Assembly (NCBI RefSeq): GCF_023703775.1
Contig: NZ_CP098514.1
Coordinates: forward strand, 1,612,001 to 1,676,000
Source of the DNA: Haloplanus sp. GDY1
Lineage (GTDB): Archaea > Halobacteriota > Halobacteria > Halobacteriales > Haloferacaceae
Direction of reading: 5' to 3'
Length of the DNA stretch: 64,000 bases
Both the position numbers and the translations under genes were made by a program. Positions 46,194 through 60,384 of this stretch are shown here, one piece after another; the stretch's first letter is position 1; each line of letters opens with the position of its first letter. The notes beneath the pieces are model-generated. The model was given only the letters and a program-made list of their open reading frames with translations. It made no database searches and had not been told where the DNA came from.

Positions 46194-46829
46194 TCAGTTC
46201 GACATGATCTGGTCGAGCAGTTTCGTCTGGGCCACCGAGAGGTGTTCGACGAACGTGGAGACGGAGACGCCGAGTTCGTCGGCCACCACGTCCGATTTCG
46301 CGCTCTTCGGCGAGTCGAAGTAGCCCATCTCGTGGGCCGTCTTGAGCACCTCGTACTGGCGGTCGGTGAACGCGTTCCGGTCGGCGACGAGCAAGGCAGG
46401 GTCCTCCTCGGTGGCGCCGCCGCGGACGAGTCGCCGGATCGCAACGTCGTCACAGCAGGATTCGAGGTCGGACGCGACGGCGCGCAGGGTGTCGAGATCG
46501 GGCGCGATGAACGCGAGTCGGAGGCGGCCGTCGTCCGCCTGGAGCCCCCGGACCGGGCAGCCGTGAGTCGGCACGCGCGAACACGGGCACTCCTCGTCGT
46601 GGGTGTATCGGTACACCGACTTCGAGCCGTCCTCGAACACCGCCTCCGCGGCGTCGTCGTTCACGGCCTCCCCGTCGTGCGCTACGGTCATCTCGCCGAC
46701 GACGGTCGATTCCGCCGTGTCCCCCTGACCGACGGTCACCGACTCGACGGTCACCGCCTCGCTCAGCGACGACGCGGGACAGCCAGTCACGCCGCGGAGT
46801 TCGAGTTGGACGTGGATTCCGGACGCCAT
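46194..46829 (-). CDS. Bat-type helix-turn-helix transcriptional regulator (HTH_10)
   Basis: 211 residues. The C-terminal HTH_10 domain (about 155-211) shows LTDRQYEVL-like FTDRQYEVLKTAHEMGYF, DVVADELGVSVSTFVEHLSVAQTKLL in parts. The N-terminal 140 residues are a sensor-like region with a cysteine cluster (EECPCSRVPTHGCP and later SCCDD), which may bind metal or sense redox. It is divergent from the four-gene operon at 46947-49369, with a 117-base spacer carrying an inverted repeat, so it is the obvious candidate regulator of that operon. Confidence 0.88.
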   Translation of the reverse strand: MASGIHVQLELRGVTGCPASSLSEAVTVESVTVGQGDTAESTVVGEMTVAHDGEAVNDDAAEAVFEDGSKSVYRYTHDEECPCSRVPTHGCPVRGLQADDGRLRLAFIAPDLDTLRAVASDLESCCDDVAIRRLVRGGATEEDPALLVADRNAFTDRQYEVLKTAHEMGYFDSPKSAKSDVVADELGVSVSTFVEHLSVAQTKLLDQIMSN

Positions 46830-46946: not shown

Positions 46947-47603
46947 ATGGCAGATCCCGTCAACAACATCGTCAAGGAGATCCCGTTCGCCGAACTCGTC
47001 CGCAAAGCCGCCCTGGCGGTGGCGGACGGACAGACGGCGCTCGACCTCAACTCCGTCCAGACGGCACAGACGCTCGCGGACATGGAACTCGACGCCGGCG
47101 CGGTCATCCTCGGCATCGTCGAGGAGACGGACGCCGACGGCAACGTCACGAACGTCTCGACGCTGACGAACGACCAGCCGCTCTCCCTGCTGGCCTACGG
47201 CGTCACGCCCACGTTCTACGAGTTCAGCGAGACGGAGATCGATCTCAGGTTCTGGGTGCGGTGGCACACCCGAAGCACGCACGTCGAGAGCGATTCGACG
47301 TTCTCGCGGGACATGCGCACCTCCTACGAGCAGTCGCGCAAGAAGTACGGCGGCGGCGGCGGCGTCGGCCTCAACCTCGGCTTCTTCTCCATCGGGGGGA
47401 GGGGCGGCTACCAGAAACAGGAGGTGAAGGGCGAACGCGAGGTGGAACTCGACGTGCGGTCACACAGCGAGTACGACAGCAAGGTGTACGGGCTGGACGC
47501 GAGCGCGGCCTGCCGGCTGAAGACGACGCTGGTGCCAAAGCCCGCGCCGGACCGTTCGGTGCCCGAAGTCATCACGCGCCCGGCCGAGGGTGGATCGTCG
47601 TGA
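46947..47603 (+). CDS. Uncharacterised protein with repeated-operon domain (DUF2589-like), first gene
   Basis: 218 residues, not firmly recognised. Residues 12-40 (IPFAELVRKAALAVADGQTALD) are matched in the next gene. The central YEFSETEIDL followed by VRW and the end ASAACRLKTTLVPKP recur as a domain pattern in the next two genes. A glycine-rich loop (KKYGGGGGVGLNLGFFSIGGRGGY, in parts) separates a charged stretch from a beta-rich tail. It resembles DUF2589-type proteins by layout; this is a judgement without a search. No signal or membrane segment is visible. Its stop overlaps the next start (GTGA). Confidence 0.78.
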   Translation: MADPVNNIVKEIPFAELVRKAALAVADGQTALDLNSVQTAQTLADMELDAGAVILGIVEETDADGNVTNVSTLTNDQPLSLLAYGVTPTFYEFSETEIDLRFWVRWHTRSTHVESDSTFSRDMRTSYEQSRKKYGGGGGVGLNLGFFSIGGRGGYQKQEVKGEREVELDVRSHSEYDSKVYGLDASAACRLKTTLVPKPAPDRSVPEVITRPAEGGSS

Positions 47604-47986
47604 GCCGGGCCGCCGAGCCCTGGGTCGCCCGACCGCTGGGCGAACTCGTCACCGGCGTCGCCCGTGCGGTGGCGGAGGGGCAGACCGAACTCGACCGCGC
47701 GTCGCTCTCGACCCGGCGGGACATCAGGCGTGCGGTGGAGACCGGCGACCTGGAGACGCCAATCGAGACGCCGTGGTTTCGCTTCGCGGGCGTCGAGGCG
47801 GACCTGAACGTGTCGCTGTCGATGCGCGGCCGGCCGGAACGCGACGCCGACGGCCGGGTTCGGGCGTATCGGCCGACGCTCGTCGCCGCGCCGACCGACG
47901 CCGAGTTCACGACGCGGACCGGCTACGACGTGGCGGCGTCGAGTCGCGTCCGTCTCGACATCGTCCCCGTCCCCGGGACCGAGTGA
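47600..47986 (+). CDS. Uncharacterised protein, second gene of the operon (same domain, shorter)
   Basis: 128 residues, GTG start overlapping the upstream stop. It begins RPLGELVTGVARAVAEGQTELDRASLSTRRD, which aligns with FAELVRKAALAVADGQTALDLNSVQTAQT of the first gene (shown in short as GELV, AVAEGQTELD). WFRFAGVEADLNVSLS aligns with FYEFSETEIDLRFWVR, and SSRVRLDIVPVP with the first gene's C-terminal strand. It looks like the domain without the glycine-rich insertion. Function is unknown. Confidence 0.78.
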   Translation: MSRAAEPWVARPLGELVTGVARAVAEGQTELDRASLSTRRDIRRAVETGDLETPIETPWFRFAGVEADLNVSLSMRGRPERDADGRVRAYRPTLVAAPTDAEFTTRTGYDVAASSRVRLDIVPVPGTE

Positions 47987-47987
47987 G

Positions 47988-49118
47988 ATGCCGGGCGACG
48001 ACTTCCGGTTCACGACGGAACTCACCGCCCTCGACACCTCGAAACTCGACCGGACCGAGAAGCGAGCGGTCGAGGGGCTCTACCGGACCAAGGAGTATCT
48101 CGACACCGAGTTGCGCGAGCGCCTGCTCGAGGTGGAGAGCGAGCGCGACCTGTTTCGGACGAGGGTCGACCGTCTGCAGGCGGAGCGCGACGCGCTCCGT
48201 GACCGGCTGGACGGCCTCGAAGCCGAGCGCGGCACCGTCGCTCCCGACCGACTCGTCGCGTCGCTGGGCGACGCCTTCACGAGTGCCCGCGACGACCTCT
48301 CGGAGGCCGACTACGCCATCGGACGGATCGAAGTCGACCTGAAGGCGAACGTCGTGGGCGGGGGGGACGGCCCGCAGTTCCAGCTTCCGGACCTCGCCGA
48401 GTCGGTGGATCGGGAGACGCTGAGCACGCTCCGGTTCGACCTCCGCCCGACCACACGGGACGACGCGGCCACCTACGATCCGATCCCGGACGTGCGCGAC
48501 CGGTCGCTCGACGAGGCACGGGAAGCCGTCCGGCGCGCGGGCTTCACCGTCGGCGAGGTGACGACCGAACCCGGCGACGCCGACGACGTGGTGATCGACC
48601 AGTTCCCCTCGCCCCGATCCGTCGCGGAACCGGGTACGGCGGTCGACCTCACCGTCTCCGAGCGTCGCGAAATCGACGTGCCGGCGGTGATCGGGAACGA
48701 CCTGGACGACGCGGTGGCGGCGCTCTCGGCGGCCGGCCTCTCGGTCGGGGAAGTCGACGCCGAGACGCGCGACGAGCCGGCGGACGCCGTGGTCGGACAG
48801 ACGCCGGCGGCGGGCGAGTCGGTCCCCGCCGGGACGGCGGTCGATCTGACCGTCTCGGTCGGTCCGGCGTCGGACTCGGACACGGACGCCGGATCGGCGG
48901 ACGGACGCGACGAGGAAGGGGGCGGGGCCGGGCCGGACCTGCAGGCCGTCGACGGCATCGGCCCGACCTACGCCGACCGCCTCCGCGCGGCGGGCGTCAC
49001 GGACCTGCCGACGCTCCTCGACCGCGACCCCGACGAGGTGGCCGAGATCACCCGTGCCTCGACGAATCGCGTCGAGACCTGGTTCGACCACGCGAAGCGG
49101 CTGCTGGAGGGCGAGTGA
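47988..49118 (+). CDS. Coiled-coil protein with shared operon domain, two PASTA domains and a helix-hairpin-helix end
   Basis: 376 residues. Residues 40-82 are heptad-rich coiled coil. Residues 88-155 carry the shared operon domain (YAIGRIEVDLKANV and TLRFDLRPT). PASTA repeats lie at about 163-225 and 229-292 (PDVRDRSLDEAREAVRRAGF and PAVIGNDLDDAVAALSAAGL in parts). An acidic linker (about 294-315) leads to a C-terminal HhH domain (318-376, VDGIGPTYADRLRAAG). PASTA normally binds cell-wall glycans in bacteria and is rare in an organism without peptidoglycan. No membrane segment is present, so it is probably cytosolic and used for protein or nucleic-acid contacts. Confidence 0.82.
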   Translation: MPGDDFRFTTELTALDTSKLDRTEKRAVEGLYRTKEYLDTELRERLLEVESERDLFRTRVDRLQAERDALRDRLDGLEAERGTVAPDRLVASLGDAFTSARDDLSEADYAIGRIEVDLKANVVGGGDGPQFQLPDLAESVDRETLSTLRFDLRPTTRDDAATYDPIPDVRDRSLDEAREAVRRAGFTVGEVTTEPGDADDVVIDQFPSPRSVAEPGTAVDLTVSERREIDVPAVIGNDLDDAVAALSAAGLSVGEVDAETRDEPADAVVGQTPAAGESVPAGTAVDLTVSVGPASDSDTDAGSADGRDEEGGGAGPDLQAVDGIGPTYADRLRAAGVTDLPTLLDRDPDEVAEITRASTNRVETWFDHAKRLLEGE

Positions 49119-49369
49119 CCGACACGCACCTGATCGCCTTCGCCCCGTCGAGCGACGAGACGGCGATCCAGCGGGTGCTCGGTCGCGTCGTCGGCGCCGG
49201 CGGCGAACTGGTCGTCGTCGCCGGCGGCGGGGTGATCGTCCGCGCGCCCGAGGCCGTCGCGGCGGCCGTCGACGACGACCCGGCGGTGCGTCACGTCGGC
49301 GGCGTGACGCTCCCGGACCGGGCGCCGGTGCGGATCCGCCGTCCGGCCGCGGACCCGCCCGCAGAGTGA
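49115..49369 (+). CDS. Small uncharacterised protein, fourth gene of the operon
   Basis: 84 residues, GTG start overlapping the preceding stop (GTGA). Predicted alternate strands and helices (THLIAFAPSS, RVLGRVVGAGGELVVVAGG, VIVRAPEAVAAAV) suggest a small ferredoxin-like fold, similar in layout to inhibitor-I9 or ACT modules. No catalytic motif is apparent. Translational coupling ties it to the PASTA/HhH protein. Confidence 0.72.
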   Translation: MTDTHLIAFAPSSDETAIQRVLGRVVGAGGELVVVAGGGVIVRAPEAVAAAVDDDPAVRHVGGVTLPDRAPVRIRRPAADPPAE

Positions 49370-49476: not shown

Positions 49477-51993
49477 ATGAAACGCGGCCCCGAGTTGATA
49501 ATCACGGAGAAGGACAACGCCGCCCGCCGCATCGCGGACATCCTGAGCGGCGGGTCCGCGGAGGCCGAGCGGATGAACGGCGTCAACGTCTACGAGTGGG
49601 GCGGCAAGCGCTGCATCGGGCTGTCGGGTCACGTCGTCGGCGTCGACTTCCCCCCGGAGTACAGCGACTGGCGCGACGTGGAACCGGTCGAACTCGTGAC
49701 CGCGGAGGTCGAGAAGCGGCCGACACAGGAGAACATCGTCGCCGCGCTCCGACGGCTGGCACGGGACGCCTCGCGGATCCACATCGCCACCGACTACGAC
49801 CGCGAGGGGGAACTCATCGGCAAGGAGGCGTACGAACTCGTCCGCGAGGTCAACGAGGAGGCGCCCGTCGACCGGGTGCGCTTCTCCTCCATCACCGACC
49901 GCGAGGTGACCGAGGCGTTCGCCGACCCCGACGACCTGGATTTCGACCTGGCGGCCGCGGGCGAGGCCCGGCAGATCATCGACCTGATGTGGGGCGCCTC
50001 GCTCACGCGCTTTCTCTCCCTCTCGGCTCGACAGCTCGGCGACGACTTCATCTCCGTCGGCCGGGTGCAGGGGCCGACGCTGAAGCTGATCGTCGACCGC
50101 GAGCGGGAGATCGACGCCTTCGACCCCGAGGACTACTGGGAACTGTTCGCCGACCTCGCGAAGGACTCGGAGACCTTCGAGGCGCAGTACTTCTACCTCG
50201 ATTCGGACGACACGGAGGCCGAACGCGTCTGGGAGGAGGACCGCGCGGAGGCCGTCGACGCGGTCCTGTCGGCGGCCGAGACGGCGACGGTCGAGGAGGT
50301 CCGCCGTCGCACCCGCACCGACGAGCCGCCGGCGCCGTTCAACACGACGCAGTTCATCCGCGCCGCGAGCGGGATCGGCTACTCCGCCCAGCGGGCCATG
50401 AGCATCGCCGAGGACCTCTACACTGCGGGCTACATCACGTACCCCCGGACGGACAACACGGTCTACCCCGAGGACCTCGACCCGCGGGAGTTGCTGGACG
50501 CGCTCTCCGCGGGCTCCCGGTTCGGCGACGACGCCGCGTCCCTCCTCGACGCCGACGACATCGAGCCGACCGCGGGCGACGAGGAGACGACCGACCACCC
50601 GCCGATCCACCCGACCGACGAACTCCCCTCGCCCTCCGATCTCTCCGAAGACGAGTGGGAGGTGTACGAACTCGTCGTGCGACACTTCCTCGCCACCGTC
50701 GCCGAGGCGGCGACCTGGGAGCACCTGCGCGTCGTCGCGGGCATCGCGGGCGGGAGCGAGACCCTCTCCCTGAAGGCGAACGGCAAGCGCCTGGTCGATC
50801 CGGGGTACCACGCCGTCTACCCCTACCGGTCGACGAGCGAGAACTACGTCCCCGACGTGAGCGAGGGCGAGGAACTCGCGGTGAAAGAGACGCGCCTCGA
50901 GGCCAAGCAGACCCAGCCGCCGCGCCGGTACGGCCAGTCCCGCCTCATCGAGACGATGGAGGACATGGGCATCGGGACGAAGGCGACGCGCCACGACGTG
51001 ATTCAGAAGCTGTACGACCGGGGGTACATCGAGGGCGACCCGCCGCGTCCCACCCGGCTGGCTCGGGGCGTCGTCGAGGCGTCCGAGGAGTTCGCGGACC
51101 TCATCGTCAGCGAAGAGATGACGGCGCAACTGGAGGCGGACATGCAGGCCATCGCCCGGGGCGAGGCCACGCTGGACGAGGTGACCGACGAGTCACGCGA
51201 GATACTCGCGGAAGTGTTCGACCGGCTCACCGACTCCCGGGAGGCGCTCGGCGACCACCTGCGCGAGTCGCTGAAGGCCGACAAGACCGTCGGGCCGTGT
51301 CCGGAGTGCGGCGCCGACCTCGTGATCCGACGCAGCCGCGGGGGATCCTACTTCGTCGGCTGTGACGGCTACCCCGACTGCGAGTTCACCCTCCCGCTGC
51401 CCTCGACGGGCAAGCCGATCCTGCTCGACGAGGTGTGTGGGGAACACGGCCTGCACGACGTGAAGATGCTGGCCGGCCGCAAGACGTTCGTCCACGGGTG
51501 TCCGCTCTGTGCGGCCGAGGCGGCCGACGAGGAACCCGACCTGATCGTCGGGCCGTGTCCCGAGTGTGGCGACGACGAGGGGGGCGAACTCGCCGTCAAG
51601 CGCCTCCGCTCGGGCGGCCGGCTGGTCGGCTGTACGCGCTACCCCGACTGCGAGTACTCCCTCCCGATGCCCCGCCGTGGCGCGGCGGAACTCACCGACG
51701 ACGTCTGTGACGAACACGACCTGCCGGGGCTTCGGATCACCTACGAGGACTCGGATCGCGAGCCCTGGGAGCTGGGCTGTCCGATCTGTAACTACCGCGA
51801 GTATCAGGCCCGACAGGAGGGGACGGAACTGGAGACCATCGACGGCATCGGCGAGAAGACGGCGGAGAAACTGAAAGCCGCCGGCGTCGAGGACGTGTCG
51901 GGACTGAAGGCCGCCGAACCGGACGCGCTGGCGAACGAGATCGACGGCGTCGGCGAGGACACGGTGCGGGACTGGCAGGCCGACGCGGACTGA
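49477..51993 (+). CDS. topA: DNA topoisomerase I (type IA)
   Basis: 838 residues. The Toprim domain starts at the N-terminus (ELIITEKDNAARRIA, ATDYDREGEL). The catalytic tyrosine is in GYITYPRTDN. The central type IA gate region includes SVGRVQGPTL and GIGTKATRHDVI. Three C-terminal zinc-finger-like modules (CPECGADLVIRRSRGG, CPLC, CPECGDD, CPICN) and a terminal helix-hairpin-helix (LETIDGIGEKTAEKLKAAGV in parts) follow. It relaxes negative supercoils. The start MKRGPELIITEKD is chosen over an upstream frame that overlaps the 84-residue gene. Confidence 0.95.
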   Translation: MKRGPELIITEKDNAARRIADILSGGSAEAERMNGVNVYEWGGKRCIGLSGHVVGVDFPPEYSDWRDVEPVELVTAEVEKRPTQENIVAALRRLARDASRIHIATDYDREGELIGKEAYELVREVNEEAPVDRVRFSSITDREVTEAFADPDDLDFDLAAAGEARQIIDLMWGASLTRFLSLSARQLGDDFISVGRVQGPTLKLIVDREREIDAFDPEDYWELFADLAKDSETFEAQYFYLDSDDTEAERVWEEDRAEAVDAVLSAAETATVEEVRRRTRTDEPPAPFNTTQFIRAASGIGYSAQRAMSIAEDLYTAGYITYPRTDNTVYPEDLDPRELLDALSAGSRFGDDAASLLDADDIEPTAGDEETTDHPPIHPTDELPSPSDLSEDEWEVYELVVRHFLATVAEAATWEHLRVVAGIAGGSETLSLKANGKRLVDPGYHAVYPYRSTSENYVPDVSEGEELAVKETRLEAKQTQPPRRYGQSRLIETMEDMGIGTKATRHDVIQKLYDRGYIEGDPPRPTRLARGVVEASEEFADLIVSEEMTAQLEADMQAIARGEATLDEVTDESREILAEVFDRLTDSREALGDHLRESLKADKTVGPCPECGADLVIRRSRGGSYFVGCDGYPDCEFTLPLPSTGKPILLDEVCGEHGLHDVKMLAGRKTFVHGCPLCAAEAADEEPDLIVGPCPECGDDEGGELAVKRLRSGGRLVGCTRYPDCEYSLPMPRRGAAELTDDVCDEHDLPGLRITYEDSDREPWELGCPICNYREYQARQEGTELETIDGIGEKTAEKLKAAGVEDVSGLKAAEPDALANEIDGVGEDTVRDWQADAD

Positions 51994-59703: not shown

Positions 59704-59946
59704 ATGGGAACCAAGAACGTCCGACTGGACGACGACGTGTACGAGCGGGTGAAAGCCCACAAGCGGGAGGACGAGACGTTTTCGGACGCCGTCGCTCGCC
59801 TCATCGAGGACGTGTCCCTCCTCGATCTCGTCGACGAGAGCGCTGAGTACGACGCGGAGCGGGCGGCAGCGCAGAAGGCCACGCTGAAGCGGACGGCGCG
59901 CGCGGACGCCGAGTCGGCCGCAGGGCTCGACGAGAAGGGTTCGTAG
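59704..59946 (+). CDS. Antitoxin, VapB/DUF217-like
   Basis: 80 residues. The N-terminal strand and helices (TKNVRLDDDVYERVKAHKR) and SDAVARLIED match archaeal VapB-type antitoxins, with an acidic/alanine-rich tail that would wrap the toxin. It ends 6 bases before the PIN-domain toxin, forming a VapBC operon. Such antitoxins repress their own promoter as a complex with the toxin. Confidence 0.85.
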   Translation: MGTKNVRLDDDVYERVKAHKREDETFSDAVARLIEDVSLLDLVDESAEYDAERAAAQKATLKRTARADAESAAGLDEKGS

Positions 59947-59952
59947 CACGGG

Positions 59953-60384
59953 ATGATCCTCGATACGAACTTTCTGATAGACCTAGACAACGACCGACCG
60001 GAGGCGATCGAGAAGGCACGACGGATCGAACGCGAAGGCCTCCCGCGGCGAGTCCCGCGAATCGTGATGTTCGAGTTGTGGGTCGCGGTCGGGAAGGGTA
60101 CACGGACAGAACACAACCGACGGAAGTTCGAACGACTGCTCGATGGGCTTCCACAGGTCGAACTCACGGCATCGATAGCGAAGCGGGCGGGAGAAATCGA
60201 GGGAGAAACGCAGGCGGCCGACCCGAACGACATCGGTGTCGGGTCCGCGGATGCGATCATCGCGGCGACGGCAATCGACGTGGGAGAGCCGGTCGTGACG
60301 GATGACGAGCGGGACTTCGTGACCCGGATACAGGAGCAGGCAGGGGTATCGGAGTTAGAGGTCGAACTGTACGCGGCCGAGTAG
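59953..60384 (+). CDS. PIN-domain ribonuclease toxin, VapC family
   Basis: 143 residues. The four acidic PIN residues are present: Asp in ILDTNFLID, Glu in MFELWVAV, Asp in SADAIIAATA, and the Asp pair in VTDDERDF. VapC toxins cleave tRNA or rRNA with Mg2+. It is paired with the antitoxin 6 bases upstream. Confidence 0.9.
   Translation: MILDTNFLIDLDNDRPEAIEKARRIEREGLPRRVPRIVMFELWVAVGKGTRTEHNRRKFERLLDGLPQVELTASIAKRAGEIEGETQAADPNDIGVGSADAIIAATAIDVGEPVVTDDERDFVTRIQEQAGVSELEVELYAAE

Follow-up and report, generated by a model that had tools for sequence, protein, structure and literature searches.

A haloarchaeal four-gene operon encoding DUF2589-like proteins and a PASTA-bearing partner that recurs in archaea and, rarely, in bacteria

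Introduction

The closest described systems to the operon reported here are gene clusters carrying DUF2589 (PF11655) and conflict systems carrying Trypco2 (PF19631). For DUF2589, the sole full-text mention found in the literature searched is a report that the related AF0414-AF0417 are up in lactate-grown Archaeoglobus (PMC3949148). Trypco1 and Trypco2 were named as companions of trypsin-like peptidases in MoxR-vWA-VMAP conflict systems (PMC7159879) and were subsequently termed adapter domains (PMC10907252).

Here we analyze a four-gene operon, A to D, of the haloarchaeon Haloplanus sp. GDY1. It lies in a stretch of 64,000 nucleotides (contig NZ_CP098514.1, positions 1,612,001 to 1,676,000), which is called the window below and to which coordinates refer unless stated otherwise. 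In our reading, to which we assign a probability of about 0.55, its products form a hetero-oligomeric scaffold or adapter that is soluble, cytosolic and enzyme-free, most likely with a role in stress or conflict.

Operon layout

The operon comprises the following genes:

46947..47603, + strand: gene A, 218 aa, DUF2589-like subunit (gene call, AlphaFold2 model, profile comparison)
47600..47986, + strand: gene B, 128 aa, short A paralogue whose GTG start overlaps the A stop (profile comparison)
47988..49118, + strand: gene C, 376 aa, coiled coil, shared domain, two PASTA domains and HhH
49115..49369, + strand: gene D, 84 aa, small conserved partner, non-homologous to A, B and C

Coordinates, starts and couplings agree with a preliminary description of this DNA. 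Overlaps of GTGA join A to B (47600-47603) and C to D (49115-49118), and a single base separates the B stop at 47986 from the C ATG at 47988. An independent codon-usage gene call recovers the same four genes. No enzymatic domain was found in any of the proteins with Pfam, NCBIfam or PADLOC, and searches of A, B and D against these collections and PHROGs gave no useful match. The only PADLOC match of C, to PD-T4-6, is confined to its generic PASTA part. None of the four proteins contains a long hydrophobic span (the highest 19-residue Kyte-Doolittle mean is 1.67, in D), so their products are read as probably cytosolic, as had been proposed. Two candidate relatives of D were set aside: a subtilisin-propeptide-like match was non-significant (0.11), and a whole-sequence similarity to the 729-aa protein Glr2806 (7.8e-5) contains no single stretch that passes.

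Similarity among A, B and C

The first three proteins carry a motif of the pattern [FYW]x[FI]xxxE[hydrophobic]DL:

47217..47246, + strand: motif YEFSETEIDL in A, aa 91-100
47777..47806, + strand: motif FRFAGVEADL in B, aa 60-69
48243..48449, + strand: shared domain of C, aa 86-154, made of a helix, the motif strand, a hairpin and the final strand LSTLRFDL
48312-48341, + strand: motif YAIGRIEVDL in C, within the shared domain

The recurrence of this motif, noted at the outset, is exclusive to A, B and C among the 60 called genes of the window (18,842 aa), and shuffling the three proteins 20,000 times never placed it in two or more of them. The ELV...AVA-GQT-LD similarity described for A and B was borne out by profile-profile comparison (99.5%, E 2.7e-22; profile E-values here refer to single comparisons). 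Furthermore, an HMM of the A profile matches Acidimicrobial B proteins over almost their whole length (7.9e-13 and 2.1e-16). For haloarchaeal C alone, direct scores with A and B are weak. C is joined through a bacterial intermediate family, the third protein of the bacterial gene sets, which compares with B at 93.1% (E 3.2e-7) and with the C core at 88.2% (E 3e-6). Column-shuffle nulls reached the A-B, B-third protein and third protein-C core scores in 0 of 60 trials per pair, and the top score among 13 unrelated real families is 18, versus 43-136 for the pairs compared here; scores from alignment A9, which includes bridge sequences, are not independent of those sequences. By these comparisons A, B and the central part of C are versions of one domain, composed of a helix, the motif strand, a beta-hairpin and a final strand of the Leu-x-Pro type, and D is no paralogue of them. 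The proposal of paralogous subunits stands for A and B directly and for C through intermediates; it does not extend to D.

Structure prediction points in the same direction. The AlphaFold2 model of A has modest confidence (pLDDT 69.8) and contains a helix (14-45), a hairpin (54-74), the motif strand (90-108), a low-confidence hairpin (119-168) and a final strand (181-198); residues 113-178 form a variable Gly-rich insert. In the model of the C core (pLDDT 87), a coiled coil (22-80) is followed by a helix (86-105), the motif strand (109-117), a hairpin (121-132) and a final strand (147-154). Allowing for the extra hairpin in A, the two proteins are predicted to share their element order. The structural similarity expected among the three proteins is therefore seen for A and C in the order of their predicted elements, and for B in profiles.

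No solved structure matching the shared domain was found. Foldseek searches against PDB and BFVD gave no match below 0.001, which does not in itself make the fold new. The best VIA-align result (Z 4.0) fell on a lone helix and was uninformative. PDB sequence searches returned nothing for A, coiled-coil matches only for the C core, and one chance-level match for DUF2589.

The A-type hairpin raises the alternative of a membrane-inserting beta-barrel or pore, in which it would insert into or line a channel built of A and its paralogues. The hairpin region of 27 A1-type relatives strongly alternates hydrophobic and polar residues (index 0.79, versus 0 +/- 0.26 when shuffled), and A strands align weakly and non-significantly with secretin barrels (Z 3.6 and 3.0). 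However, these 27 sequences are interrelated, the A protein of the window lacks the alternation (0.15; 95% of the null lies at 0.27), neither B nor C has the long hairpin, and amphipathic strands are ordinary in soluble sheets. We regard a pore as quite improbable. In the preferred scaffold or adapter reading, A and B would pack against the matching domain of C through exposed edge strands.

Relation to DUF2589

The possible relation to DUF2589 was pursued with profiles. No protein of the operon or of the whole genome matches the Pfam model over its gathering score, and three A-family relatives match it weakly (best 2.7e-4). Profile-profile comparison of A with DUF2589 reaches 94.8% (E 4.9e-8) over 161 columns, with 0 of 60 shuffles attaining this score. 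A distant kinship between A and DUF2589, suspected earlier, is thus well supported at the level of sequence profiles. The third protein of an Archaeoglobus-like DUF2589 cluster also compares with B (91.2%, E 1e-6). In Vibrio plasmid neighbourhoods of DUF2589, the annotation of adjacent genes showed no consistent context.

Additional modules of C

C had been described as adding a coiled coil, two PASTA domains and an HhH element to the shared domain. All were recovered, the first as a predicted helix and both domain types over their Pfam cut-offs:

48051..48227, + strand: predicted coiled-coil helix of C, aa 22-80
48483..48662 (contig 1660483-1660662), + strand: PASTA domain 1 of C
48675..48857, + strand: PASTA domain 2 of C
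48936..49097, + strand: HHH_5 at the C terminus of C

The two PASTA copies (PF03793) are matched at 5.6e-26 and 90.7 bits, while HHH_5 (PF14520) passes its cut-off of 27 marginally (27.8 bits, 3.6e-06). PASTA counts as a "cell-wall" domain, and the host is an archaeon without a peptidoglycan wall. The preliminary description considered its presence odd, and it is indeed unusual for the group. Across 148 host-family genomes, PASTA matches over the Pfam cut-off occur in 19, which are the 19 with gene A, and always inside the operon, so PASTA is in this family effectively only part of the present system; three further genomes have sub-threshold matches near 1e-3. Outside the family, all seven wider-phylum C proteins tested carry one to four copies, and PASTA is also present in one Acidimicrobiaceae C and one Pontiellaceae third protein. 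Neither the genus g27 C protein nor six of the seven wider-phylum proteins have the HhH, which is therefore an optional module; it is seen again in Acidimicrobiaceae, Pontiellaceae and one haloarchaeal DUF2589 cluster.

The HhH could mean that the operon forms a DNA- or chromatin-associated complex, with this element binding DNA and the paralogues forming a coat or tether. Its resemblance to the HhH at the topoisomerase I C terminus (40% identity over 52 aa) and its recurrence in the three settings just named are consistent with such a complex. Its optional nature argues against one, protein contacts through HHH_5 are also possible, and we consider this explanation unlikely. As a part of a scaffold or adapter, the HhH may dock the complex onto a nucleic acid or protein target, the coiled coil would multimerise C, and the PASTA repeats would serve as an extended binding arm rather than a peptidoglycan sensor.

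Distribution and gene order

Gene A is present in 19 of the 148 host-family genomes, representing 7 of 28 genera. Seventeen loci were read in this family, namely the window and 16 others, the latter with the same gene set in differing chromosomal surroundings. The order is A-B-C-D in the host genus and two further genera, A1-A2-B-C-D in genus g14, which is Halorubrum according to named records of an alignment-based scan, and B-C-D-A1-A2 in genera g23, g27 and g5. In one genome of genus g2, A and B are absent from the gene call and were recovered by tblastn, and D was not found. In Halobaculum litoreum (L045:6722-9812, also L120), A1 and B are split across frames, reflecting either decay or assembly indels; the genome is 85% complete.

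An exact-peptide scan of genomes gave no match. The alignment-based scan of named genomes yielded 37 loci, among them loci of Acidimicrobiaceae, Chloroflexi, Pseudanabaena, Chlorobium, Coleofasciculus, Clostridia, Pontiellaceae and Gammaproteobacteria. Many bacterial loci have the order D-A1-A2-third protein-coiled-coil protein, and a Sphaerotilus plasmid holds a five-gene unit of this kind, all hypothetical proteins, amid metabolic genes. Of 295 genomes from the wider archaeal phylum, 26 match the A profile, mainly those of family f10, whose loci are ordered A-B-C-D with PASTA in C. This family is probably Methanosarcinaceae, in line with the PASTA signal that the Methanosarcina acetivorans control gave. 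One f10 genome has a second C-like coiled-coil gene, encoding 1324 aa, upstream of A (L159:7050-11024). In two bacterial classes sampled, the centre genome alone was positive (1/145 and 1/148), so the set is rare and sporadic there. In archaea and bacteria alike, proteins of the A, B and C types are inherited together with D as one set, with several arrangements of the genes. The co-conservation anticipated for related genomes thus extends from haloarchaea to another archaeal family and scattered bacteria.

A tree built from 64 sequences of types A, A1, A2 and B resolves A1, A2 and B as one clade each, with support of 0.80 for A1, 1.0 for A2 and 0.998 for B. Clades A1 and A2 each contain bacteria and archaea, and clade B contains archaea and Acidimicrobia. 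Since these clades cross domains, the paralogues split before the set spread. Such an early split would fit subunits of one assembly that are inherited or transferred together.

One of the bacterial loci, on an Acidimicrobiaceae contig, has a tail-tube gene of the T4 gp19 type (PF06841, 3e-36; L089:510-941) immediately before D-A-B-C, as might be expected if the proteins belonged to a phage tail or a contractile injection machine. This is a single occurrence: no such gene was recognised at the window locus or the other loci read, and the operon has no match in PHROGs or among phage records, making a tail machine very improbable. The contig begins just upstream of the tail-tube gene. Given the recurrence of the set, its products probably form a cytosolic assembly of proteins that is as yet undescribed.

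Possible relation to conflict systems, and genomic context

Trypco2 gives no match over its gathering score in the host genome, and relatives show weak single-member matches (0.0036 and 0.042). By profile comparison, Trypco2 is most similar to the C-core alignment (77.9%, E 1.9e-5); its similarity to B (46.5%), DUF2589 (26.5%) and the third protein is weaker, and all of these similarities exceed the shuffled and real-family nulls. Kinship of the shared domain with Trypco2 is likely but not proven. One cyanobacterial protein (L138:1444-1965) seemingly has two tandem Trypco2-like domains.

On this basis, the operon might be a dedicated anti-virus or self/non-self conflict module, in which A, B and C act as Trypco2-type adapters linking a sensor to effectors encoded elsewhere. 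Besides the Trypco2 resemblance and the published place of that domain in VMAP and MoxR-vWA systems (PMC7159879, PMC10907252), the sporadic distribution of the operon would suit such a module. In Pseudanabaena, two DGSAS/DASAS (vWA-like) genes lie downstream (L095:3831-7129), the second with OmpA, but they are a single case and the first has no Pfam score. Trypsin/caspase, MoxR ATPase and vWA neighbours were not recognised at the window and haloarchaeal loci, where gene calls were read and Pfam was applied to selected neighbours. Likewise, no peptidase, MoxR ATPase or effector was recognised at the 17 host-family loci, inspected by eye and in part scanned; beyond the window, genes were called mechanically, and neighbours were mostly judged by reading rather than by profile. 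PADLOC is silent except for the generic PASTA similarity, and the window operon is surrounded by housekeeping rather than conflict genes. We therefore view a dedicated module as possible but doubtful.

Neighbours of the operon in the window are a GatB-like gene (assigned by inspection), a globin and topoisomerase I. The globin gene is of the truncated type (PF01152; 45731-46090, minus strand) and lies upstream of the operon, and topoisomerase I ends in an HHH_5 like that of C (51826-51981). Farther away, a VapB-type antitoxin followed by a PIN-domain gene (59704-60384) is a likely VapBC pair. A regulator is divergently encoded beside the operon:

46194..46829, - strand: DmsR_N/HTH_10 (Bat-type) regulator, a neighbour and not a conserved part

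This regulator adjoins the operon at 3 of 17 loci, all in the host genus, and does not do so in a fourth host-genus genome. The suggestion that it controls the operon consequently finds no support in conserved adjacency.

Interpretation and comparison with known systems

The scaffold or adapter encoded by the operon would most likely gather other proteins during stress or conflict. The similarity to Trypco2 makes a conflict role the foremost guess at the biology, but no effector was recognised beside the operon; a conflict or stress response is the leading role, although unproven. More tentatively, DUF2589, Trypco2 and the A, B and C proteins may belong to one superfamily of assembly domains. 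The operon could then be a self-sufficient conflict or stress scaffold that spread between bacteria and archaea, with PASTA having moved from cell-wall sensing to cytosolic recognition.

These findings place DUF2589, an orphan Pfam domain, in a defined multi-gene system with a fixed partner set. In the host-family genomes sampled, the operon accounts for all PASTA that passes the Pfam cut-off, and profiles tie the system to a domain described as an adapter in bacterial conflict systems. As the set occurs in many members of a probably genetically tractable archaeal family (by our reading, the Methanosarcinaceae), its assembly and function are directly testable.

Among described systems, DUF2589 clusters are alike in several respects. 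DUF2589 and A have in common a helix with A-Q-x-x-L, a PLL...P strand, a hairpin and a final strand. In archaeal DUF2589 clusters, too, paralogues stand in tandem ahead of a third protein that also has this domain; in one haloarchaeal cluster that third protein bears an HhH as C does. In contrast, no PASTA was seen in the clusters read, and their fourth gene is other than D. Trypco2 appears, by profile, to have the same motif region and element order as the shared domain, but no gene for a trypsin-like peptidase, MoxR or VMAP was recognised next to the operon in the window. C has PASTA repeats in common with PASTA kinases and penicillin-binding proteins. Unlike them, C is found in an archaeal host and has no kinase or transpeptidase domain and no membrane span or anchor.
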